Assembly (NCBI GenBank): GCA_945872795.1
Contig: CAMCAZ010000007.1
Span: 1 to 64,000, forward strand
Source: Chryseobacterium gleum
GTDB taxonomy: Bacteria; Bacteroidota; Bacteroidia; Flavobacteriales_F; PHOS-HE28
Direction: 5' to 3'
DNA: 64,000 nt
Shown: one piece after another, positions 13,148 to 54,095 of the stretch
Layout of the letters: each line of letters opens with the position of its first letter
Numbering within the stretch: position 1 is the stretch's first letter
Program-made: the position numbers and the translations under genes
The notes under the pieces: generated by a model
The model's input: only the letters and a program-made list of their open reading frames with translations
What the model was told of the DNA's origin: nothing
Database searches by the model: none

Positions 13148-13280
13148 CGGCCGAAATTAGAGGGATCGGGTGAGGTGGGGGCCGATCAGGGAAAGATGGG
13201 GTGGTCCACAGGGTGAGCTGGATGAATGCTATCCCCCACAGAGCGGCCTGCCGATAGCAGGAATGGATGACTACGCAGAC

Positions 13281-13830
13281 GGCTCGCTGGCTCGCCTTGG
13301 GAAGAGCAGCGTGAATGCGTTTATCCATAGACCTGCCTGCCGGAGGCCGGTGAGGACGATCTCACAGATGTAGTGCGGCTCGCAGGCTCGCTAATGGAGG
13401 AGCTGCGAATGCGTTTATCCACAGATGAAGAAGATGACACAGATGAATGCGGCTCGCAGGCTCGCCAATGGTAGAGCTGCGAATGCGCTTATCCATAGAC
13501 CTGCTTGCCGGGGGCCGGTGAGGACGAATTCACAGATGTAATGCGGCTCGCAGGCTCGCTAATGGAAGAGCTGCGAATGCGCTTATCCATAGACCTGCTT
13601 GCCGGAGGCCGGGGAGGACGATCTCACAGATGTAGTGCGGCTCGCAGGCTCGCCAATGGAGGAGCTGCGAATGCGTTTATCCACAGATGAAGAAGATGAC
13701 ACAGATGAATGCGGCTCGCGGGCTCGCTAATGGAGGAGCTGCGAATGCACTTATCCACAGACCTGCTTGCCGGGGACAGGTGAGAACGAATTCACAGATG
13801 TAATGCGGCTCGCGGGCTCGCCTTGAGAAT
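13281..13830 (+). repeat. Left repeat array of the GxxExxY element
   Basis: The dyad GGCTCGCxGGCTCGC recurs seven times, at 13281, 13377, 13451, 13545, 13639, 13713 and 13807, with spacings of 96, 74, 94, 94, 74 and 94 bases. The 74-base units contain CCACAGATGAAGAAGATGAC followed by ACAGATGAAT. The 94-base units replace this with a segment containing CTTGCCGGAGGCCGG and CACAGATGTAAT. Units share GAGCTGCGAATGCG(T/C)TTATCCA(C/T)AGA. The array lies directly 3' of the GxxExxY gene and its core motif is inverted relative to the right array. The first unit is preceded by a degenerate copy from about 13205. No protein frame of this stretch looks real. Confidence 0.85.
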
Positions 13831-14860: not shown

Positions 14861-15787
14861 TCAGTGGTGTTCCAGGCCGCAGTGCTCATCGGCCCATTCC
14901 AGTTCGATGGTCGCGTGGTGGATACCCAGCGCCTTCAGCTCCGCCCTTGCCTGGGCCTTGATCCCCCGGGCCTGAAGTAGGTCCACATCGGCCACCACCA
15001 CGTGCACCGTATGCACCACCAGGTTGCCGTCCAGTGTCCACGTGTGCTGGTCGTGCAGGTCCCTCACGTTCGGGATGGTCATCAGCCGGGTGCGGATGGC
15101 CTGCATGTCGATGCCCGCCGGGATCTCCTGCATCAGGATGCCCGTGCCCTTGCGCAGGGTGCTCAGGGCGTTCCAGAGGATGAACACGCCGATCCCCACG
15201 CTCATCAAGGGATCCACGATGGCCCATCCGGTGAAGTACATGATGACCGCGCCCACCAGCACCGCCGCCCAGCCCAGCACATCCTCCAGCAGGTGCAGGT
15301 AGGCGCCGCGCTCGTTCAGGCTGCCCCCCCCGTGCAGCTTCCACGCCGCCAACCCGTTCATCAGCAGGCCGAAGACCGCGATGCCCATCATGCCCGTGGT
15401 ATGTGGCAGTTCCGGCGCCCACAGCCTGGGCACGCTCAGCACCAGCATCGCCCCTGCGCCCACCATCAGCACCACGCTCGTGAGCCAGCCGCCCAGCATG
15501 CTGTAACGCCCGTATCCGTAGCTGTACTGCGCGTCGCGTCCCTTCATCGCCACCCGTTGCAGCCACCACGCGGTGCCCAGCACCAGGCAGTCGCCGGCAT
15601 CGTGCAGGGCATCCGTCAGCACCGCGATGCTGCCCGTCCACCAGCCGCCCACGGCCTCCACCACCGTGAAGGCGAGGTTGATGAAGAAGGCCACCCGCAG
15701 CGAAGCCGCCCCGGCCGCATGACCGTGACCATGATCATGACCGTGGAGGTCATGTCCGGCATGGGCATGCACGTGGTCGTGGGGCAT
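14861..15787 (-). CDS. Cation diffusion facilitator (zinc-type efflux transporter)
   Basis: A 308-residue inner-membrane antiporter of the CDF family that exports divalent metals, probably zinc. A histidine-rich N-terminus (HDHVHAHAGHDLHGHD...) is a typical metal-sensing leader. Six membrane helices follow. The transport site is recognisable as DALHDAGD in helix 2 and HLLEDVLGW (HxxxD) in helix 5. The C-terminal cytoplasmic domain contains DLHDQHTWTLDGN and ends with WADEHCGLEHH. Overall it is CzcD-like. Metal specificity cannot be fixed from the sequence alone. The gene lies 28 bases after dnaG and is followed by the 47-residue gene. Confidence 0.92.
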   Translation of the reverse strand: MPHDHVHAHAGHDLHGHDHGHGHAAGAASLRVAFFINLAFTVVEAVGGWWTGSIAVLTDALHDAGDCLVLGTAWWLQRVAMKGRDAQYSYGYGRYSMLGGWLTSVVLMVGAGAMLVLSVPRLWAPELPHTTGMMGIAVFGLLMNGLAAWKLHGGGSLNERGAYLHLLEDVLGWAAVLVGAVIMYFTGWAIVDPLMSVGIGVFILWNALSTLRKGTGILMQEIPAGIDMQAIRTRLMTIPNVRDLHDQHTWTLDGNLVVHTVHVVVADVDLLQARGIKAQARAELKALGIHHATIELEWADEHCGLEHH

Positions 15788-15815
15788 GGGGCGAAGGTAG
15801 GAGAGGGTATCGGCC

Positions 15816-17771
15816 TCACCCCACCACCACCCGTCCCGTCTTCTTCGCCAGGCGTTTCTTCGCCTCGCTCAGCTGCATGATCTCCTGCAGCAGGGCCATC
15901 ACGCCCAGTTCGTCGGCGGTGCGCAGTTGTTCCTGTCGCTCCGTGATCATGCGGTCCACGCGGCGTTCCTTCAGGATGTCCACGGCCTCCTCGAGGGCAT
16001 CGAAGAGGGTCTCGCTTTCGCGTTTCACGTGGATCTTGTGGCGCTCCTTCCAGTTGGGGCTCAGCACGTGGCGTTCGGTGAGCAGGTCGATGGCGGTGCG
16101 CCTCCAGGGTTCCTGCTCGTGGCCCACGTAGCGGGCGGCATCCACGGAGGTGCCCAGGTTGCTGGTGTGGCGGTAGTCCAGGTAGATCTCCCGGAAGATG
16201 GGCTCGTCGAAGAGTATGTCGTCCAAGGCCAACAGCTCGAACATGAGCTCGGCCACGCTGGTCTCATCCTCGGTGCTGGTGCCGTCCTCGTTCTGGAAGG
16301 GCACCAGGATGCGCTCGTGCCCGTAGCTCAGCAGCATGCGCAGCAGGTCGCGCTCCTGGGGCGTGGTGCCGAGGTCCTCCAGTGTGGGTTGCACGGGGGC
16401 GACATCCGGCGCGAGCATCTCCTCGGGCATGGGCTGGTCGCCGCCCAGCTGCCTGCGGTACTGCCGGCGCAGCACCTTGTTCATCTCGCTGATCAGCGCC
16501 TGCTCGTTGATCTGCAGCAGGCGGCTGCACTGCTGCACGTACAGCGAGCGCAGCACCAGGTCGGGCACCAGGGCGATGCTCTCCACGATCTCGTGGATGG
16601 CGGCGGCCTTCTTCACCGGGTCGTCGCCCACGTCCTGCATCAGCAGGGTGGCCTTGAAGACGAGGAAGTCCTGTGCGTTGCGCGTGAGGTGATCGCTGAC
16701 CTCGCTGCTGCTGTGTTTCTTGGCGTAGCTGTCCGGATCCTCGCCCTCGGGGAAGGTGACGACCTTCACGTTGAGGCCCTCCTTCAGGATGAGGTCGATG
16801 CCGCGCAGGCTGGCCTTCATGCCCGCCGCATCGCCATCGTAGAGGATGGAGACGATGGGCGCGTAGCGCTTGATGAGGCGCACCTGCTCCTCCGTGAGGC
16901 TGGTGCCGCTGCTGGCCACCACGTTGGCGATGCCCGCCTGGTGCAGGCTGATCACGTCGGTATAGCCCTCCACCAGGTAGCAGAGCTGCTGCTCCACGAT
17001 GGCCTTCTTGGCGTGGAAGATGCCGTAGAGGGATCGGCTCTTGGAGTAGAGCACGCTCTCCGGGCTGTTGAAGTACTTGGGGAGCTTCTTGTCGCTCTTC
17101 AGCGTGCGGGCCCCGAAGGCGATGGGCTGGCCGCTGAGGCCGAAGACCGGGAAGGTGACGCGCCCGGCGAAGAAGTCCCACGCGCTGCCGCTGCCATCGT
17201 CGCGCCGCTTGATCCAGCCGGCCTTCTCCAGCACCTCGGGGTTGAAGCCGTGGGCGGTGGCCGCGGCGGTGAAGGCGTTGCCGAACTCGGGCACGTAGCC
17301 CAGCTGGAAGGCCTTGATGGTGGCGTCGCTGAAGCCGCGTTCGTGGAAGTAGGAGAGGCCGATGCGCTTGCCCTCGTCGGTGTGCCACAGTTGCTCCACG
17401 CTCCAGTTCAGCGCCCACTGCTGCACCACGGCGAGGCTTTCGCGCTCGCTCTGCTCCAGCTGCTGCTCGGCGCTCTGCTCCTCCTCGGGCAGGTCGATGT
17501 TGTAGCGTTTGGCCAGCCAGCGGATGGACTCCACATAGCTGAGGTGCTCGTGCTTCTGCAGGAAGCCGATGGAGTCGCCGCTCTCGCCGCAACCGAAGCA
17601 CTTATAGATGCCGAGGTTGGGGCTGACGTTGAAGCTGGGCGTCTTCTCGTTGTGGAAGGGACAGAGGCCCAGGTAACGCGGGCCCTTGCGCTTGAGCGCC
17701 ACGAACTCGCCCACCACCTCCTCCACGCGGGCGGCGTCCTTGACCTGTTGGATGGCGTGGGCTTGGATCAT
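15816..17771 (-). CDS. dnaG: DNA primase
   Basis: A 651-residue primase that makes RNA primers at the replication fork. The CHC2 zinc finger is at the N-terminus (CPFHNEKTPSFNVSPN, YKCFGCGESGD). The catalytic core holds the Toprim motifs VEGYTDVISL and ILYDGDAAGM. The C-terminal helical part, which contacts the replicative helicase, is present. I chose the ATG at 17771 (MIQAHAIQQVKDAARVEEVV), which fits the family N-terminus; a 15-residue longer form is unlikely. The upstream region has two DnaA-box-like nonamers (17835 and 17885). Confidence 0.97.
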   Translation of the reverse strand: MIQAHAIQQVKDAARVEEVVGEFVALKRKGPRYLGLCPFHNEKTPSFNVSPNLGIYKCFGCGESGDSIGFLQKHEHLSYVESIRWLAKRYNIDLPEEEQSAEQQLEQSERESLAVVQQWALNWSVEQLWHTDEGKRIGLSYFHERGFSDATIKAFQLGYVPEFGNAFTAAATAHGFNPEVLEKAGWIKRRDDGSGSAWDFFAGRVTFPVFGLSGQPIAFGARTLKSDKKLPKYFNSPESVLYSKSRSLYGIFHAKKAIVEQQLCYLVEGYTDVISLHQAGIANVVASSGTSLTEEQVRLIKRYAPIVSILYDGDAAGMKASLRGIDLILKEGLNVKVVTFPEGEDPDSYAKKHSSSEVSDHLTRNAQDFLVFKATLLMQDVGDDPVKKAAAIHEIVESIALVPDLVLRSLYVQQCSRLLQINEQALISEMNKVLRRQYRRQLGGDQPMPEEMLAPDVAPVQPTLEDLGTTPQERDLLRMLLSYGHERILVPFQNEDGTSTEDETSVAELMFELLALDDILFDEPIFREIYLDYRHTSNLGTSVDAARYVGHEQEPWRRTAIDLLTERHVLSPNWKERHKIHVKRESETLFDALEEAVDILKERRVDRMITERQEQLRTADELGVMALLQEIMQLSEAKKRLAKKTGRVVVG

Positions 17772-17834
17772 GGGTGTGGCGAACGGGGCCGTGAATTTAC
17801 CCCGGCGCAAGCCCATGGCCGCCGTTGTTGATGC

Positions 17835-17893
17835 TTATTCACGAAGGGCGTGGCGGAGGTCCTGATGGTCAGGCGGCTGGGAGGTTATCCACA
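17835..17893. promoter_or_regulatory. Two DnaA-box-like nonamers upstream of dnaG
   Basis: TTATTCACG at 17835-17843 has one mismatch to the box TTATNCACA; TTATCCACA at 17885-17893 matches it. They lie 64 and 114 bases upstream of the dnaG start. Regulation of primase by DnaA is possible but unproven; such boxes also occur by chance. Confidence 0.3.
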
Positions 17894-17921
17894 CCGATCC
17901 CACGATCGATCAACACAGGCC

Positions 17922-18374
17922 TTAGCGCCGGATGATCACCCCTGTGCTGTCGTAGGTCACGCGCTTCAGTTCGTCGCCGCGCTCGTTGTAGAACACCCAC
18001 TCGCCGAAGTTCTTCCCGTGCAGGTAGCTGCCGACGTAGTAGGGCATGCCGTTGGGGTGGTTCACCTCGGTGGGGCCTTCCTCCACACCGTCCACGTAGG
18101 TGATGCGGCTGCGCAGGGTGTTGTCCTTGAAGTAGGAGGCCCAGGGTCCCACGCGGGTGCCGTTCTTCATCATGCCCTCCATGCGTCCGCCATCGTCCAG
18201 GGGGATGAGCTGCTGGCCGTTCGCTGCGGGGGCTGTGATCATGGCCGGGGGGCTGCTGCTGTCGGCCGCAGTGGTCGTCGGTGCGGCACCGGGCTTGGCC
18301 GCGGGGGTGCAGCCGGTGGCCAAGATCAGGGCCAGGGGTCCGATCAGCAAGGGAAGGGAAAGGGTGCGCGCCAT
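17922..18374 (-). CDS. Lipoprotein with MORN-type repeats
   Basis: A 150-residue lipoprotein. The signal sequence ends with the lipobox LATGC (Cys22). After a low-complexity Ala/Pro/Thr/Ser linker come repeats of the MORN/YwqK type: GRMEGMMKNGTRVGPWASYF, GVEEGPTEVNHPNG and GKNFGEWVFYNERGDELKRV. These repeats form beta-hairpins, often found in outer-membrane lipoproteins of Bacteroidota. No catalytic residues are evident. It follows the polyprenyl synthase gene by 9 bases on the same strand, so the two are probably co-transcribed. Confidence 0.8.
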   Translation of the reverse strand: MARTLSLPLLIGPLALILATGCTPAAKPGAAPTTTAADSSSPPAMITAPAANGQQLIPLDDGGRMEGMMKNGTRVGPWASYFKDNTLRSRITYVDGVEEGPTEVNHPNGMPYYVGSYLHGKNFGEWVFYNERGDELKRVTYDSTGVIIRR

Positions 18375-18383
18375 GGGTAGGGG

Positions 18384-19358
18384 CTATTTGGTACGTTCCA
18401 CGGTGAGCTGGACGAGACCTTCCAGACCGTCGCGGGCCTCGTTCCTGGGGAAGGTGTGCAGCACGGCGAGGGCTTCGTCCCGGTAGGCCAGCATGCGCTG
18501 GTGGGCGTGGGTGATGCCGCCGGCCTGCCGCACCATGTCGATGACCTTGGCCACGGCCTTGTCGTCCTCGTTCCGGTTCTTCACGGCGTTCACCATCCAG
18601 CGGCGGTCGGCGGCGCTCACGCGCTGCAGGGCGTGGATCAGTGGCAGGGTGAGCTTTTTCTCCTTGATGTCCAGCCCGCTGGGCTTGCCGATCTCCAGGC
18701 CGTTGCCGTAGTCGAAGAGGTCGTCCTTGATCTGGAAGGCGATGCCCGTAAGCTCACCGAAGCGGCGCATGCGGTCCACCTCCTCGGTGGGGCGCCCTGC
18801 GGCACTGGCACCGCTGGCGCAGCAGGCGGCGATGAGGCTGGCGGTCTTCTGGCGGATGATGGTGAAGTAGACCTCCTCGTCGAAATTGAGGCTGCGGCTC
18901 TTCTCCAGCTGCAGCAGTTCGCCCTCGCTCATCTCGCGCACGGCGTGGCTCATGATGCGCAGCAGCTCGAACTCGCCCTTGTCCACGGCCAGCAGCAGGC
19001 CGCGGCTCAGCAGGTAGTCGCCCACGAGCACGGCGATCTTGTTCTTCCAGAGCGCGTTGATGCTGAAGAAGCCCCGGCGCAGGGAGCTTCCGTCCACCAC
19101 GTCGTCATGCACCAGGGTGGCCGTGTGCAGCAGTTCGATGAGGCTGGCTGCGGTGAAGGCGCTTTCGGTGACGGGCCCGAAGAGGCGCGCACTGAGCAGG
19201 GTGAACATGGGCCGCATCTGCTTGCCCTTGCGCTTCACGATGTAGTGCATGATGCGGTCCAGCAGGGCGGCTTTGCTGCGCATGGCTTCGCGGAAGTGGG
19301 GCTCGAAGGCCAGCATCTCCGCGGCGATCGGCCGCTGGATCTCGTCTATGGACAGCAT
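18384..19358 (-). CDS. Polyprenyl diphosphate synthase
   Basis: A 324-residue trans-prenyltransferase that extends an allylic diphosphate with isopentenyl diphosphate units, probably to make the side chain of menaquinone. The first aspartate-rich motif is HDDVVDGSSLRRG and the second is QIKDDLFDYG; KGKQMRPMF is the usual basic motif that binds diphosphate. The length fits long-chain synthases (octaprenyl type), but product length cannot be read with certainty. I chose the ATG at 19358. Together with ispD, ispG and menB in the window it supplies the quinone and isoprenoid pathway. Confidence 0.93.
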   Translation of the reverse strand: MLSIDEIQRPIAAEMLAFEPHFREAMRSKAALLDRIMHYIVKRKGKQMRPMFTLLSARLFGPVTESAFTAASLIELLHTATLVHDDVVDGSSLRRGFFSINALWKNKIAVLVGDYLLSRGLLLAVDKGEFELLRIMSHAVREMSEGELLQLEKSRSLNFDEEVYFTIIRQKTASLIAACCASGASAAGRPTEEVDRMRRFGELTGIAFQIKDDLFDYGNGLEIGKPSGLDIKEKKLTLPLIHALQRVSAADRRWMVNAVKNRNEDDKAVAKVIDMVRQAGGITHAHQRMLAYRDEALAVLHTFPRNEARDGLEGLVQLTVERTK

Positions 19359-19446
19359 CGGGGGCGAAGTTCGGCATCCCAAGCGTGCCCCGCACGCAAC
19401 CCTGCCGCTCTTCGGTCGTCCTTTAGGCGGTGAGGCCCACGCCGCC

Positions 19447-19454
19447 TACCTTCG
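19447..19454 (+). promoter_or_regulatory. Possible -7 box very close to the gene at 19461
   Basis: TACCTTCG ends 6 bases before the ATG at 19461. If it is used, the transcript would start at or next to the ATG, giving a leaderless message. Confidence 0.35.
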
Positions 19455-19460
19455 CTCTGC

Positions 19461-20177
19461 ATGCGCCCCACCCGTACGGCCCCCCTCATCCTTGTTCTGG
19501 TCCTGGCCGGAGCCTTCCATGGAACAACCATGGCCCAGAACAGCAAGGCGCGCGTGCTGCTCTACAAGGAACGGCTGGCGGCACAGTTCGACACGGTGAA
19601 CTGCGTGAAGAACGTGTTCAAGATCAATCCGCTGCTGTTCTTCCGCGGCGAGATCCCCCTTTACTACGAACGCGCCATCTCGCCGAACGTGAGCCTGGAA
19701 TTGGGCGTGGGGGTGACCCTCCGCGATTACCTGGGCCTCTCCCTCAACAGCGATGATGCGGACGATTACGGGGCCGGCACGGAGATCATCCCCAACCTGA
19801 GCTACCACATCGCGGTGCGTTACTATTTCCTCGATGACCTGGAGCCTCAAGGTCTCTACCTCCAGCCCGGGCTGTCGCATCTGGTCTACGGAAAGAACAT
19901 CCTGGTGCAGGATGCGGACGGCACCTACGGCGAGGAGAAGTACCTGGACGAACGGGTGTACAACGATATCCGCCTGTTGCTGGGTTACCAGATGCTGAGC
20001 GCCAACAGCAACTGGCTCTTCGACCTGTACGGCGGGTTCGCCTACCGCATGCGCGATATGCAGGTGGTGACGGAGACCACCGACCCCGCCACGCGGCTTA
20101 CCACCTACGACACTGAGCAACAGAATGATGCCGTGCCGGCCGTGTTCCTGGGGGTGAAGGTGGGCCTAGGGTTCTGA
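19461..20177 (+). CDS. Outer-membrane beta-barrel protein, unknown function
   Basis: A 238-residue protein with a signal peptide ending near TTMAQ. The body has alternating hydrophobic and polar residues with many aromatic strand ends (IPLYYERAISPNVSLELGVG, YHIAVRYYFLDD, WLFDLYGGFAYRM) and closes with the barrel-type C-terminus LGVKVGLGF. It resembles the small DUF3575-like outer-membrane proteins of Bacteroidota. The role is unknown. It is divergent from the polyprenyl synthase gene and is transcribed alone. Confidence 0.75.
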   Translation: MRPTRTAPLILVLVLAGAFHGTTMAQNSKARVLLYKERLAAQFDTVNCVKNVFKINPLLFFRGEIPLYYERAISPNVSLELGVGVTLRDYLGLSLNSDDADDYGAGTEIIPNLSYHIAVRYYFLDDLEPQGLYLQPGLSHLVYGKNILVQDADGTYGEEKYLDERVYNDIRLLLGYQMLSANSNWLFDLYGGFAYRMRDMQVVTETTDPATRLTTYDTEQQNDAVPAVFLGVKVGLGF

Positions 20178-48721: not shown

Positions 48722-49690
48722 TCACGCGGTTTCTCGGTCGACGTACGCGATCGACGCACCGTGATCAGTAACGCTGAGGCTCACCGTAGCGCCCAGCACC
48801 AACGCCCTGTTGTCATCGATGTGACCGGCCGGAAAGCCGTAGCACACGGGAAAGTCCGCATCACCCACAGCATCGGCGATGATCTGTTCGGCGGTCTTGC
48901 CGAAGGGGTCCGCAGGGTTCTTGTCGTGCATGTCGCTCATGCCGCCCACCATCAGCCCGGCCAGGCCCTTGAACCAGCCCGACAGGTGTAGGTTCTGCAC
49001 CATGCGGTCCAGGTGGTAGAGCAGTTCGTCCAGGTCCTCGATGAACAGGACCTTGCCGCGCGGATCGATGTCGTAGGGCGTACCGCGCAGGGCATAGAGC
49101 AGGGAGAGGTTGCCGCCGATGAGGATGCCTTCACCCTGGCCCACGCGCGTGAACGGTGTCCCGATGGATGTCGGGAGGTCATGGGTGAACAGGTGGCTCA
49201 CCCATTCGCCGTTCGCCATCGACGATCCGTCCTGCATTAGCGCTGCCCGCAAGCTCTCCCGGCATTGCTCCGTCTTCGTCCCGATGTTGAACGGCATCTG
49301 CGCGTGCAGGCTGGCCATCCCCATGTTGTGCAGCGCGTTGTGCAGCACGGTGATGTCGCTGAAGCCCACGATCCACTTCGGGTCCCGCTTCAGCGAGGAA
49401 AGGTCCAAGTGGTCCAGGAGATGCACGGTGCCGTAGCCGCCACGGGCGCACCAGATGGCCCGTACGGCGGGGTCGTCCAGCATCTGCTGAATGTCCGCTG
49501 CACGTTCCTCGGCCGTGCCCGCCTGTTGGAAGTGTTTGCGGCCGATGCCGGCCCCCAGCTTCACTTTCAGGCCCCAGCTTTCCGCCAGGGCGATGCCGTC
49601 GCGCAGCTCATCCACCGTGATGGCGCGGGCCGTGGGGACGATGGCGATGGTGTCACCGGGGCGGAGGGAAGGCGGGATCGACACGGACAT
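48722..49690 (-). CDS. LD-carboxypeptidase (S66 family)
   Basis: A 322-residue peptidase that trims the terminal D-alanine of murein tetrapeptides in cell-wall recycling. Family blocks are SLRPGDTIAIVPTARAI at the N-terminus, RAIWCARGGYGTVHLLDHLD, and KWIVGFSDITVLHNALHNMG with the nucleophilic serine. The Glu and His of the triad should be in GILIGGNLS-to-FIEDLDE and GFPAGHIDDN. The ATG at 49690 is chosen; a longer frame runs into the attC-like element. It is the first normal-composition gene after the cassette island. Confidence 0.93.
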   Translation of the reverse strand: MSVSIPPSLRPGDTIAIVPTARAITVDELRDGIALAESWGLKVKLGAGIGRKHFQQAGTAEERAADIQQMLDDPAVRAIWCARGGYGTVHLLDHLDLSSLKRDPKWIVGFSDITVLHNALHNMGMASLHAQMPFNIGTKTEQCRESLRAALMQDGSSMANGEWVSHLFTHDLPTSIGTPFTRVGQGEGILIGGNLSLLYALRGTPYDIDPRGKVLFIEDLDELLYHLDRMVQNLHLSGWFKGLAGLMVGGMSDMHDKNPADPFGKTAEQIIADAVGDADFPVCYGFPAGHIDDNRALVLGATVSLSVTDHGASIAYVDRETA

Positions 49691-49755
49691 GGGGCGAAGG
49701 TCAGCAGTCTTGTGCAAACCGAGTAACGGATCGGTGCACTCCCTCTTGAACTTCA

Positions 49756-49884
49756 CTAACGGCTTGGCGCTTGGCGAAGAAGCGGATTTCGAAACACTAA
49801 ACTGTCTGTCAGCACTATACTTGATACGAAGCACAAAGTTTCATTTAAGCCCTGAGCCCGCTTTTTTGCCAAACGCCTGTTACC
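49756..49884 (-). repeat. attC-like site A
   Basis: A 129-base element just beyond cassette gene 1. On the minus strand it starts GGTAACAGGCGTTTGGC and ends GCCAAGCCGTTAGTG, so the ends form inverted halves (AACAGGCGTTTGGC against AACGGCTTGGC), with inner arms AAAAAAGCGGG and CCGCTTCTTCG. The middle includes GTTTAGTG. Size, imperfect palindromy and the terminal AAC/GTT triplets match integron attC sites. It is nearly identical to site C (about eight differences). Confidence 0.75.
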
Positions 49885-49891
49885 TGCTGCC

Positions 49892-50467
49892 TTACTTTCT
49901 TGTCCAATTAACATTTCTCTTATCTGTGTATTTTATAATTCCTATTTGAGTGTCAAAAGTAAAGTTATTGATTCCCTTCTCGACATTTATTTCTGGATAT
50001 GTCGCTTTGTTGCGTTCAAAAAAGTACGTAGAACTGTCAAGCTGTTCAATATTGGTTATTTCATCACCACTGAAAACTATCCCAATAAATATTAATTCTT
50101 TGTCAGTAAACTCACTTGAAGATGAATTTGAAATTCTAAATAAGTCTTGGTCATACCTCTTTGTATCACCACTCATTTTCGCAAATTGATGATAGCTCCC
50201 TTTGGTAAATTCATACGCCACCGAAAAAGTCGTCCTATCATAATACCCCTGTTCTATATTCCTAATTGAGTATTTTGTTGTGTCCGTTTTATGGAAAATA
50301 ATACTGTCAATTTCCTCAAATTCTGATATAAATATTACTGTTTCAGTTTTATTATAAGGTCCAAACCATTTAAGGTCTTCAGAAGAAAAGGTTTTTACCT
50401 TACCAACATAACAAGCTTGAAGTAATACTAAGGTCAAAAATCCAATACAAATTTTCTTAAAGTTCAT
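49892..50467 (-). CDS. Cassette gene 1: A+T-rich lipoprotein
   Basis: A 191-residue lipoprotein with a short signal and lipobox LLQAC (Cys19). The remainder is beta-rich with many charged residues (FSSEDLKWFGPYNKTETVIF, YDRTTFSVAYEFTKGSYHQF); I do not recognise the family. Codon use is very A+T-rich, unlike the housekeeping genes around it. It is flanked by attC-like sites A and B and is the last gene of the island before the LD-carboxypeptidase. It is probably an acquired cassette. Confidence 0.75.
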   Translation of the reverse strand: MNFKKICIGFLTLVLLQACYVGKVKTFSSEDLKWFGPYNKTETVIFISEFEEIDSIIFHKTDTTKYSIRNIEQGYYDRTTFSVAYEFTKGSYHQFAKMSGDTKRYDQDLFRISNSSSSEFTDKELIFIGIVFSGDEITNIEQLDSSTYFFERNKATYPEINVEKGINNFTFDTQIGIIKYTDKRNVNWTRK

Positions 50468-50494
50468 TTCTATAAATATTCTTTTAAGGTTGCA

Positions 50495-50619
50495 GCTAAC
50501 GGTTCGCGTATATGACTTGTGGCGATTTCCGAAGTACGTTCCCGTCCACCGTGACCAAAATTAGCTAAAAGTGCTAAGCTTTGTCACTTTCCCGCCATAA
50601 GTTATATGCGCTGTTGTGC
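50495..50619 (-). repeat. attC-like site B
   Basis: On the minus strand it starts GCACAACAGCGCATATAAC and ends GTCATATACGCGAACCGTTAGC. The halves GCGCATATAACTTATGGCG and CGCCACAAGTCATATACGCG pair over about 19 positions with few mismatches. The middle contains an inner palindrome-like part (AAAGCTTAGCACTTTTAGCT). Its sequence is unrelated to sites A and C, but the layout, length and AAC/GTT ends are the same. Confidence 0.7.
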
Positions 50620-50628
50620 TTTCGTGTT

Positions 50629-51012
50629 TTATTTTATTTTCAAAGTCGACCACCTCTTTTTATACTTCCAACTTGACTTTGTACAATCTAGCTCAACTAA
50701 TGTATCATTTTCAATTAACTCTAATCCACATATTCCTGGACTCTCTTTGTAAATGTTTTTTGTTGCCCATGGAAAATTAATGTCCATTAGAGAAGTTCCT
50801 ACCCAGAGCGATTCATTTGGTTTAATTTCGATTATGGTGTCAACTTTTGCACTGAATTCTCCCTGATTAGGGTCAATAGGATAATTTGGAACATGTATTC
50901 TGATATTCTTATAAGTTCTATTTTGAACAGAATAATGAAGATGATTGACAGCATCACAAGCAAACAAGGTTACTGATACCAACCCTAATAGTATGTGTTT
51001 TCCGAATTTCAT
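50629..51012 (-). CDS. Cassette gene 2: A+T-rich lipoprotein
   Basis: A 127-residue lipoprotein with lipobox VTLFAC (Cys20). A small domain follows (YSVQNRTYKNIRIHVPNYPI, DTIIEIKPNESLWVGTSLMD). There is one cysteine pair candidate near the C-terminus (ICGLEL, ELDCTK). No family is recognised. The ATG at 51012 is chosen because it begins the signal peptide; the longer open frame runs through attC-like site C and is not real. The gene is strongly A+T-rich and is bounded by sites B and C. Confidence 0.75.
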   Translation of the reverse strand: MKFGKHILLGLVSVTLFACDAVNHLHYSVQNRTYKNIRIHVPNYPIDPNQGEFSAKVDTIIEIKPNESLWVGTSLMDINFPWATKNIYKESPGICGLELIENDTLVELDCTKSSWKYKKRWSTLKIK

Positions 51013-51025
51013 TTTTTTACATGAC

Positions 51026-51157
51026 GCATAACGGTTTGGCGCTTGGCGAAGAAGCGGATTTCGAAGCACTAAACTGTCTGCCAGCACTGAACTTGATACG
51101 AAGCACAAAGCTTCATTTAAGCACTGAACCCGCTTTTTTGCCAAACGCCTGTTAGCC
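51026..51157 (-). repeat. attC-like site C
   Basis: On the minus strand it starts GGCTAACAGGCGTTTGGC and ends GCCAAACCGTTATGCG, 14 bases before cassette gene 2. The inner arms and middle are the same as in site A apart from about eight substitutions, although the flanking genes are unrelated. GTTATGC at the 3' end is the same form as in the Vibrio cholerae repeat family. Confidence 0.75.
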
Positions 51158-51161
51158 ACAG

Positions 51162-51776
51162 TTATTTTTCGTTTATTTTCCATTCGTTATCTTCAAACAC
51201 AAATATTCCATTCCCTGCTCTAATTCTTTTTATATATCTGTCATATTTAGCTTCATCAAGTGTCCAAGCTAAACACCAATAGTTAAACATTTCAGGTTCT
51301 TTTTTAATCTCGTTGATATTTTTTTGTTGTTCTTTTGAAAATAATAAGACAGCTTCTTCATATTTTTTTTCATCCATCAATTTTTTCAGTTTCTCAACAG
51401 TTTTTAATTGTCCTGCAATTGTGTCAATTGGTATGTTCTGTTTGATGGAGTATTTATCAATTAAGTTTTCTTCAGATTTATACCATTTTTTGAAATTATG
51501 AATACTTCCGTTCGTATAAATTGTATCAACGTTTTTGTCTGTATAGTGAATTAAAATTCTATGAGTTTTCATATATTTTGTCGGACCCAAATCTTTCGAT
51601 TTATTTAGGTCTGCAATAAACTCTTTCTCAAAGCCTTCGTTCATTTGTAATTTAATTCCCGGAAATCCTTGGTAAATTTCAATTAGTTCTACATTACTTG
51701 AGTTAATTGTCAAAGTCTTGTATGAGCCACAAGAAATCATAAGTCCTAAAATTGTCAAAATAGCTATTTGTCTCAT
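51162..51776 (-). CDS. Cassette gene 3: A+T-rich lipoprotein
   Basis: A 204-residue lipoprotein with lipobox LMISC (Cys16). A domain with possible helical repeats follows (KTVEKLKKLMDEKKYEEAVL, FSKEQQKNINEIKKEPEMFN). The gene ends KIRAGNGIFVFEDNEWKINEK-like. No family is recognised. Codon use is A+T-rich (AAA, TTT, ATT dominate). It is the first gene of the island on the minus strand, divergent from metG. Confidence 0.75.
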   Translation of the reverse strand: MRQIAILTILGLMISCGSYKTLTINSSNVELIEIYQGFPGIKLQMNEGFEKEFIADLNKSKDLGPTKYMKTHRILIHYTDKNVDTIYTNGSIHNFKKWYKSEENLIDKYSIKQNIPIDTIAGQLKTVEKLKKLMDEKKYEEAVLLFSKEQQKNINEIKKEPEMFNYWCLAWTLDEAKYDRYIKRIRAGNGIFVFEDNEWKINEK

Positions 51777-51794
51777 TGTCGTTTTATAATTGTG

Positions 51795-51860
51795 GCTAAC
51801 TGCAGATATACGCACCTGTTTCGCATATCACCCCGGGAATGGGTGGATATGCGCAACTCC
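51795..51860 (-). repeat. Possible attC-like half-site D
   Basis: The stretch from GGCTAACTGCAGATATACGC (plus strand) to GCGCAACTCC contains the hairpin GCATATCACCC / GGGTGGATATGC (one-base bulge) and ends in the same AAC/GTT polarity as the other sites. It is shorter and less symmetrical than A-C and lies between cassette gene 3 and metG, where the composition changes. It could mark the array boundary. Confidence 0.4.
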
Positions 51861-51966
51861 TGGCGTGGCCTGGGTCGTTGGTCCTGGATGCGCTCATCAC
51901 AGCCAAGATAAGGGTGGCGCCTGGCCTTCGCCAAGCACGCTGCCTGTGTCTCCCGGTGCGCTTCGG

Positions 51967-51974
51967 TACCTTCG
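51967..51974 (+). promoter_or_regulatory. Possible -7 box of metG
   Basis: TACCTTCG lies 9 or 21 bases before the two candidate GTG starts of metG. The same box precedes purQ, the gene at 19461 and the gene at 57449. Confidence 0.35.
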
Positions 51975-51983
51975 CGGCCCGAA

Positions 51984-54095
51984 GTGCCCGCCCCCGTGAA
52001 GTCCCCCGCCCGCCATACCGTCACCGCCGCCCTGCCCTACGCCAACGGCCCCCTGCACATCGGCCACATCGCCGGTGCCTACCTCCCTGCGGACATCTAC
52101 GTGCGCAACCTGCGCCAGCGGGGCAAGGAGGTGCTCTTCATCTGTGGCAGCGATGAGCACGGTGCGGCCATCACCATCCGCGCGATGAAGGAGGGCACCA
52201 CGCCACGCGCCATCGTGGACACCTACCACGCCCTGATGGGACAGGCCTTCCAGGACTTCGGCATCCACTTCGACATCTACCACCGCACCAGCAGCGAGCT
52301 GCACACCGAGACCAGCCAGCAGTTCTTCCTGAAGCTCCACGAGAACGGCGCCTTCACCCAGCAGGAGGAGCAGCAGTACTACGATGAGGAGGCCAAACAA
52401 TTCCTGGCCGACCGCTACATCATGGGCACCTGTCCCACCTGCGGGAATGCCGATGCCTACGGCGACCAGTGCGAGAAATGCGGCAGTGCCCTCAGCCCCA
52501 AGGACCTCATCGAGCCGCGGAGCACGCTGAGCGGTGCCAAGCCCGTGCTGAAACCCACCACGCACTGGTACCTCCCCATGGAGCGCAGCCAGCAGTGGGT
52601 GGAGGAATGGATCAACACCGGTGTGCTGGACGGCAAACCGCACCATGATCCCAAGGAATGGAAGGCCCCGGTACTGGGCCAGTGCAACAGCTGGCTGAAG
52701 GACGGCCTGCGCCCGCGCGCCATGACGCGTGACCTGGACTGGGGCGTGCCCGTGCCCCTGCCCGGCGCGGACGGCAAGGTGCTCTATGTCTGGCTCGATG
52801 CACCCATCGGCTACATCAGCGCCACCCGCCAGTGGGCGAAGGACAAGGGAGGGACCTGGGAGAAGTGGTGGAAGGACGAGGATACACGCCTGCTGCACTT
52901 CATCGGCAAGGACAACATCGTGTTCCACTGCATCATCTTCCCGATCTTGCTGAAGATGCACGGTGGCTACAACCTGCCGCAGAACGTCCCGGCCAACGAG
53001 TTCCTCAACCTAGAGGGTCGGAAGATCAGCACCAGCCGCAACTGGGCCGTGTGGCTGCACGAGTACATCGAGCGCTGGCCCGGTCGCCAGGATGAGCTGC
53101 GCTATGCACTGGCCACCATCCTGCCGGAGTTCAAGGACAGTGAGTTCACGTGGAAGGACTTCCAGGACAAGAACAACAACGAGCTCGTGGCCATCCTGGG
53201 CAATTTCGTGCAGCGTGTGTTCGTGCTCTGCCACAAGTACTACGGCGGGATCGCACCGGCTGCAGGTGAGCGCACCGACCAGGACCAACTGCTCTGGAGC
53301 GCCGTGCACGCCAGCGTGGAGGAGGTGGCCCGTCACGTCGACCATTTCCGCTTCCGCGATGCCCTGTCCAGCGCCATGAACGTGGCCCGGGCCGGCAACA
53401 AATACCTATCGGACAGTGAGCCCTGGAAGCTGGAGAAGAGCGATCCGGAACGGACCCGGACCATCCTGGCCAACAGCCTCAACGTGGCGGCGGTACTTAC
53501 GGTGGTATTGGAACCTTTCCTGCCCTTCACCGTGAAGAAGTTGCAGCAGATGCTCGGCATCGGCACACTGCCCTGGACCGAGGCGTTCCGCACCGACCTG
53601 ATCGGCGAAGGGGCCGTGCTGGGCAAGGCCGAACACTTGTTCAAGCCCATCACGGATGAGGAGATCCAGCCTGAGGTGGACCGCTTGCACAGTTCCGATC
53701 AGACGATCAGTGGATCAGATGATCAGAAAATGGAAAGTGCTGCCTCTGAGGCTCCCGTTACCAAGCCCAACATCGCCTTCGACGACTTCGCGAAGCTGGA
53801 CCTGAGGGTGGGGACCATCACTGCCGCTGAACGGGTCCCCAAGGCGGACAAGTTGCTGAAGCTCACCATCGACCTGGGCGAAGCTGCGCCCCGTACGGTG
53901 GTCAGTGGGATCGCGCAGCACTACGCCCCGGAGGACCTACCGGGCCGCCAGGTGGTGCTGGTGGCCAATCTGGAGCCCCGCAAAATGCGCGGTGTGGAGA
54001 GCCAGGGCATGGTATTGATGGCCGAGGATGCCACCGGGAAGTTGGTCTTCGTGCAGCCCAAGGACATCATCGCCCCCGGGTCGGAGGTGCGCTAG
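51984..54095 (+). CDS. metG: Methionyl-tRNA synthetase
   Basis: A 703-residue class-I synthetase that charges tRNA-Met. The HIGH-type motif is ALPYANGPLHIGHIAGAY, the zinc domain has CPTCGNADAYGDQCEKCGSA, the KMSKS equivalent is KISTSRNWAVW, and a C-terminal EMAPII-like tRNA-binding domain (FDDFAKLDLRVGTITAAE, VANLEPRKMRGVESQGM) follows. Only GTG starts are available: 51984 or 51996; the latter (MKSPARHTVTAALPY) fits homologues better. A TACCTTCG box ends 9 bases before the first one, so the message has a very short leader. It borders the cassette island. Confidence 0.97.
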   Translation: MPAPVKSPARHTVTAALPYANGPLHIGHIAGAYLPADIYVRNLRQRGKEVLFICGSDEHGAAITIRAMKEGTTPRAIVDTYHALMGQAFQDFGIHFDIYHRTSSELHTETSQQFFLKLHENGAFTQQEEQQYYDEEAKQFLADRYIMGTCPTCGNADAYGDQCEKCGSALSPKDLIEPRSTLSGAKPVLKPTTHWYLPMERSQQWVEEWINTGVLDGKPHHDPKEWKAPVLGQCNSWLKDGLRPRAMTRDLDWGVPVPLPGADGKVLYVWLDAPIGYISATRQWAKDKGGTWEKWWKDEDTRLLHFIGKDNIVFHCIIFPILLKMHGGYNLPQNVPANEFLNLEGRKISTSRNWAVWLHEYIERWPGRQDELRYALATILPEFKDSEFTWKDFQDKNNNELVAILGNFVQRVFVLCHKYYGGIAPAAGERTDQDQLLWSAVHASVEEVARHVDHFRFRDALSSAMNVARAGNKYLSDSEPWKLEKSDPERTRTILANSLNVAAVLTVVLEPFLPFTVKKLQQMLGIGTLPWTEAFRTDLIGEGAVLGKAEHLFKPITDEEIQPEVDRLHSSDQTISGSDDQKMESAASEAPVTKPNIAFDDFAKLDLRVGTITAAERVPKADKLLKLTIDLGEAAPRTVVSGIAQHYAPEDLPGRQVVLVANLEPRKMRGVESQGMVLMAEDATGKLVFVQPKDIIAPGSEVR

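Follow-up and report, generated by a model that had tools for sequence, protein, structure and literature searches.

An integrase-less cassette array between ldcA and metG in Chryseobacterium gleum points to an integron variant in Bacteroidia

Results

Integrons are platforms that collect genes and, in other bacteria, help antibiotic resistance to spread. A 64,000-nucleotide stretch of Chryseobacterium gleum DNA (assembly GCA_945872795.1, contig CAMCAZ010000007.1, positions 1 to 64,000; hereafter the window) contains an A+T-rich island that, in our assessment, is very probably a cassette array of the integron type that has no integrase of its own and was inserted between ldcA and metG; it comprises an attI-like site and three lipoprotein cassettes. 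We call this array an integrase-less member of a new integron variant. With less certainty, the comparative data favor the broader view that Bacteroidia have their own widespread and unrecognized integron system, in which the recombinase lies outside the IntI clade and lacks the IntI insertion, and the hairpins lack extrahelical bases.

Between approximately positions 49750 and 51800, within the ldcA–metG interval, the GC content falls from about 0.62 to 0.29–0.37, which bears out the abrupt change in composition reported in a preliminary description of this DNA. The same description had noted three lipoprotein genes on one strand, each followed by a palindrome with AAC...GTT ends, and the coordinates and lipoboxes confirm this layout. 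Gene 1 (51162..51776, minus strand, 204 amino acids, lipobox LMISC) is followed on its 3' side by site A (51030..51153), gene 2 (50629..51012, minus, 127 amino acids, TLFAC) by site B (50498..50615), and gene 3 (49892..50467, minus, 191 amino acids, LLQAC) by site C (49758..49881, with the R' AAC at 49758-49760 and the R'' GTT at 49879-49881). None of the three proteins reaches the cut-off of a Pfam family. The sites are given on the plus strand, which is their "bottom" strand. Together, gene and site form cassette 1 (51032..51799, minus, 768 bp from G|TT to G|TT, supported by identity to a Daejeonella sequence), cassette 2 (50500..51031, minus, 532 bp), and cassette 3 (49760..50499, minus, 740 bp), the AAC/GTT boundaries of the last two being taken from the sequence.

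The attC-type sites stand out clearly from their surroundings. A pattern of AACGG, a stem, and GTT occurs in the 64-kb window exactly at A, B, and C and not once on the other strand; among 300 dinucleotide shuffles of the island, 298 contained none and two contained one. Sites A and C are 94% identical. A model (R1) was derived from an alignment of 22 related elements, of which three lie in the window and the others in congeners, and it scores site A at 139.7 bits (a training member), site B at 80.0, and site C at 125.8. Site C was also folded, and the folds of A and B have z-scores of −2.4 and −3.0, respectively. Across the alignment, 94.1% of stem cells are paired compared with 67.9% in shuffles, and stem covariation reaches 0.593; the corresponding value for shuffles is 0.149 (0/500), and with slid columns it does not exceed 0.114. 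Both sides have changed in 17 of 21 stem pairs, and sliding the partner by 1–3 columns destroys the signal. As in canonical attC, the R' triplet (AAC in 21 sites, TAC in one) is followed by G in 22/22, and the unpaired central spacer is asymmetric, mostly 5 nt versus 1 nt. A second model (R2), built from 11 sites beside true IntI genes, gives 76.9 bits for A, 64.4 for C, and 34.0 for B, with no other match in the window; because its seeds were R1 matches, R1 and R2 are not fully independent. R2 additionally recruits further sites within IntI arrays, and its window-unique scores place the three elements above background, as expected of attC sites.

A free integron cassette is a circle in which the two ends come together, and the outer box of each site consequently pairs with the beginning of the cassette it belongs to. 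This signature was recovered in 81 cassettes from related genomes, where complementarity between a cassette's two ends amounts to 5.78 of 8 positions, compared with 2.80 for the flanks of the same site and 2.90 at random. In a permutation test, 0 of 2000 permutations reached the observed value, the maximum being 3.62. The complementarity spans 6–7 bases, with each of the first six end positions complementary in about 0.87 of cases; cassette 1 of the window matches at 7/7. Position 8 outside AAC/GTT is complementary in only 0.02 of these cassettes, one side being mostly T, and forms a conserved mismatch that ends the outer box. In long arrays, the longest open reading frame (ORF) runs in the cassette direction in 67 of 83 cassettes, whose median length is 884 bp.

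Exchange of single cassettes between genomes was also found. Window cassette 1 is 98.9% identical over 652 bp to a Daejeonella metagenome-assembled genome, from GTTAGCC to GGCTAAC, and the identity ends exactly at the crossover bases. Similarly, genomes G043 and G519, which belong to different families, share a 1439-bp cassette at 97.2% identity from AAC to AAC, including the hairpin. The gene 1 protein is 98% identical in Daejeonella and 67% identical in Telluribacter, and a class sample of 395 genomes yields relatives of it in just three further genomes, all outside the genus; in those three, the relatives lie in no detectable cassette. The same gene with the same outer boxes carries differing stems in three hosts (window 51030-51799; L037:5976-6627; L038:5976-6618), as if stems had been exchanged or homogenised apart from genes. 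Judged from these sequence comparisons, the units are cassettes in the integron sense.

These observations bear directly on a simpler explanation, in which the palindromes are dispersed repeats resembling repetitive extragenic palindromes or miniature inverted-repeat transposable elements, or else terminators, situated between the genes of a foreign island and involving no cassette movement. Palindromes between co-oriented genes would suit such an explanation, as would the loop sequence, which is kept as well as the stem. However, the genome holds only four copies of the element, three of them in the window, and the complementarity joins the ends of one cassette rather than the flanks of one element. 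Because, in addition, single-gene transfers stop exactly at AAC/GTT and the sites cluster head-first at one recombinase family (see below), this explanation is already contradicted and appears extremely improbable. A genome-wide repeat family was likewise rejected, as only two blast-level copies are present in the genome. The fourth site (G000:C47:141-270) lies at a contig end and is probably the last cassette of another array.

An attI-like site, which the preliminary description had not included, was located at the 5' end of the array beside metG (51798..51857, plus strand). It reads AAC|TGCAGATATACGCACCTGTTTCGCATATCACCCCGGGAATGGGTGGATATGCGCAAC, and its boundary was set by complementarity to cassette 1. 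In a dozen arrays, the array start, defined by the complement of the end of the first cassette, lies mostly 44–180 nt past the recombinase stop codon, and about half of these starts share AAC|T-N4/5-ATAT(A/G)CGCA, a motif found in the window at 51798. The array is flanked by the ORFs of ldcA (LD-carboxypeptidase; 48722..49690, minus strand, start at about 49690) and metG (methionyl-tRNA synthetase; 51984..54095, plus strand), the latter present in 38 of 45 genomes of the genus. Gene order here is not conserved among relatives, in keeping with the comparison that had been proposed for this locus: in many congeners ldcA directly adjoins metG at an empty junction, while genome G042 carries the same attI upstream of metG, with homology to the window beginning at AAC and entirely different cassettes beyond it. 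One small gene unlike those of the window and one tyrosine recombinase from a separate family make up the content of those cassettes, and G042 alone shares the window attI among the inspected stretches upstream of metG. In another congener, G030, a recombinase of the array-associated family described below stands immediately upstream of metG, at a contig end. The empty, G042, and G030 versions of the slot, as read from these assemblies, identify it as an occasional platform with exchangeable cassettes. The G042 recombinase was considered as the platform integrase and rejected, since its family is a different one and its gene is part of a cassette. This second family was seen at L143:11883-13190 (G042, in the metG-platform cassette) and at L069:10730-12034 (genome G038), where it adjoins a site.

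No integrase-type recombinase was found on the window contig, in agreement with the preliminary description; the genome's matches lie on contigs 51, 28, and 8. The array thus has three attC-type sites, where at least two are needed, and no integrase match on its contig, which is the composition of a cluster of attC sites lacking integron-integrases (CALIN). The earlier assignment to a CALIN-type cassette cluster is supported by the attC-model scores, the variable gene order, and the mobile cassette 1. An Rfam search of the window returned tRNA only, and no phage record matched it.

The preliminary description had proposed looking for an IntI-type recombinase elsewhere in the genome. A related tyrosine recombinase does exist on contig 51 (415 amino acids), but this best match to TIGR02249 scores 201.7 bits against a curated cut-off of 265, and none of the 45 genus genomes contains an IntI above that cut-off. 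The protein begins with a DUF5710-like region, which stays below the Pfam cut-off, and continues with a SAM-like and then a catalytic domain, with the domain pair Phage_int_SAM_4 and Phage_integrase. Its closest solved structure by sequence is IntI4 (2a3v, 8e-40), and it has no counterpart to the IntI-specific insertion (model positions 182-239, IntI4 residues 207-245). In a tree with only two Xer rows as the outgroup, IntI forms a single clade (100/100), and the Bacteroidia recombinase family falls outside it (83/87). The cassettes, the attC model, and attI agree with an integron, but the recombinase is not a recognised IntI, and the integron label here accordingly denotes a variant system. 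On contig 51, the recombinase stop codon is followed by an attI-like AAC|TTTGGGTATACGAAG and then by the contig end. A join between contigs 51 and 47 is not claimed, as their ends share zero k-mers of length 12 or more.

Across Bacteroidia, R1 sites occur in 184 of 247 genomes and 110 of 135 genera, and the family recombinase occurs in 128 of the 247 genomes at E <= 1e-80. Among 45 well-assembled genomes, the recombinase is present in 31 of 40 with sites and in none of five without them (Fisher p 0.0016). In the vicinity of 38 recombinase copies, 83 sites were counted in 625 kb, compared with two in 779 kb near 42 XerC/D-type copies in the same genomes. At all 29 loci with sites, the sites lie on a single strand with the 5' end of the array toward the recombinase (p 4e-9). 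The median distance between the two is 1.3 kb, and at 22 of the 29 loci the recombinase gene has the same orientation as the cassettes.

This distribution also weighs on the possibility that the array is the CALIN remnant of an ordinary integron, built by a canonical IntI that was later lost, with the Bacteroidia recombinase being irrelevant. Such an origin would fit the recognition of the window sites by the IntI-associated model R2 and the frequency of IntI elsewhere in the phylum (105 of 395 genomes). We nevertheless consider it very unlikely, given that IntI exceeds the cut-off in only one of the 247 Bacteroidia genomes against 184 with sites, that another recombinase heads the arrays, and that R1 yields 80–140 bits on the window sites but only 14–32 bits on sites beside true IntI genes elsewhere in the phylum. 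Alternatively, the recombinase could be the integrase of a mobile element of the genomic island or phage type, with the arrays as passive passengers. Island tyrosine recombinases do stand at one end of their insert, and relatives of the family occur on viral contigs. However, islands end in direct repeats of one att site instead of carrying a hairpin for every gene, the array start follows mostly 44–180 nt past the recombinase stop codon, often with a common motif, and the unit of exchange is the single cassette, not the whole island. This scenario is accordingly given an equally small probability.

Several further loci were recorded. Plasmid pPP2 of Persicobacter psychrovividus (NZ_AP025294.1:299622-329785; L154, L156) carries about 30 sites on one strand over 25 kb; nearly all of the genes between these sites have the annotation hypothetical protein, genes of a similar kind extend further toward 347 kb, and no family recombinase was found in the examined stretch. 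A plasmid of Chryseobacterium sp. SNU WT5 (NZ_CP041688.1, L153) has a window-like site (118 bits) between a MazEF-type toxin–antitoxin pair and a TauE-type transporter gene. Among 54 searched viral contigs with recombinase relatives, only one has a clear site set, with genes on the other strand, and these contigs were not used as evidence. The viral contig IMGVR_UViG_3300043411_001575 (L246:169-5188) has a recombinase relative and, next to it, seven attC-type sites interspersed with methyltransferase-like and other genes; its genes run opposite to the normal cassette strand, and several begin inside sites. In an AlphaFold model of a viral relative, the core is that of an ordinary tyrosine recombinase (archaeal Xer Z 22, IntI4 Z 21), whereas the N-terminus is predicted poorly; the model offers nothing decisive for the array recombinase. 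Elsewhere in the window, positions 13280-13822 hold a cluster of long imperfect direct repeats (280–428 bp self-matches in a self-comparison).

Discussion

Taking the sites, their boundaries, the transfers, and the co-location with a recombinase family as they stand in the sequences, we infer a recombination reaction of the integron kind. Free cassette circles, each carrying one folded site, would be the substrates, and a tyrosine recombinase, most likely a member of the Bacteroidia recombinase family, would join the folded bottom strand of an attC-type site at G|TT either to attI or to another site. The window array may have been filled in trans by the contig 51 recombinase, which has its own attI on its 3' side; alternatively, a recombinase copy may once have stood beside metG and since been lost. 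Transcription of the cassette genes presumably starts from a platform promoter. This promoter, the joining reaction with its choice of strand, and the role in trans are inferences from the sequence data.

Several points weigh against this interpretation. Recombination itself was not observed. In canonical attC sites, the L stem of the bottom strand has two to three extrahelical bases, and these set the strand choice (PMC2727003). The preliminary description had anticipated such bases in the bottom-strand fold, yet they are missing: the arms are of equal length in 20 of the 22 aligned sites, and columns 18/122, where an extra base would stand, hold a C.A mismatch in 15 sites and a standard pair in seven. 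Gene 1 carries other hairpin stems in Daejeonella and Telluribacter, a difference that is not accounted for by simple transfer of a cassette. Only about half of the platforms show a clear attI motif, nine of the 38 recombinase loci have no site within reach, and nine of the 40 site-bearing genomes in the well-assembled set have no recombinase. Finally, at the position of the second catalytic histidine the contig 51 copy has LLGL, in contrast to LGH in the 11 other rows of the family alignment, and for this reason it may be weak or dead.

Bacteroidetes have been reported to be nearly free of integrons, with integrases lacking cassettes as the only earlier finds, followed by one complete integron in Salinibacter ruber (PMC9024848). 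Against this reported near-absence, attC-type sites are present in three quarters of the Bacteroidia genomes sampled here, and the matching recombinase in half of them all. Our search of the literature on integrons, attC, these recombinases, and IS1111-attC elements, with preprints and most subscription papers outside its reach, found no description of the system. If the recombinase works, Bacteroidia would hold a large unread cassette pool, and the rules by which integrons are found would need to change. Two questions would also become testable, namely how a strand is chosen without extrahelical bases and what purpose the IntI insertion serves. Should Bacteroidia indeed have an integron system of their own, folded single-strand cassette capture would be independent of its two supposed defining features.

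The closest parallel is provided by the sedentary chromosomal integrons of the Vibrio type. Both have one gene and one hairpin site per cassette, a crossover at G|TT, an R'' complementary to the start of its own cassette, and attI and the recombinase at the head; in both, sites are alike within a genus, as are the repeats (VCR sites) of Vibrio. The Bacteroidia system differs in its recombinase, which does not belong to the IntI clade and has no IntI insertion; in most cases this recombinase has an N-terminal domain, and in 22/29 loci it is oriented in the cassette direction. Its hairpins have equal arms without extrahelical bases, and its crossover pairing comprises AAC plus 6–7 nt (about 10 bp). 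Like CALINs (PMC9024848), the window array combines several attC-type sites with the lack of a nearby integrase; unlike them, it retains an attI, and the system to which it belongs has a recombinase family of its own, which scores below the cut-off of IntI models. The recombinase also resembles the "integron-like" simple tyrosine recombinases (PMC8138268) in its best structure match, IntI4, and in the pair Phage_int_SAM_4 and Phage_integrase; in the accessible part of that source, members of this subgroup are not tied to arrays in Bacteroidia. A further likeness concerns the IS1111-attC insertion sequences. In genome G101, an IS110-family insertion sequence with a 324-amino-acid transposase occupies approximately the same point in five attC-type sites (L127:10833-12075, 15672-16919, and 18292-19540; L128:10790-12034 and 17575-18817). 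The host sites there are of the Bacteroidia type, and the likeness to IS1111-attC rests on the position within the sites.
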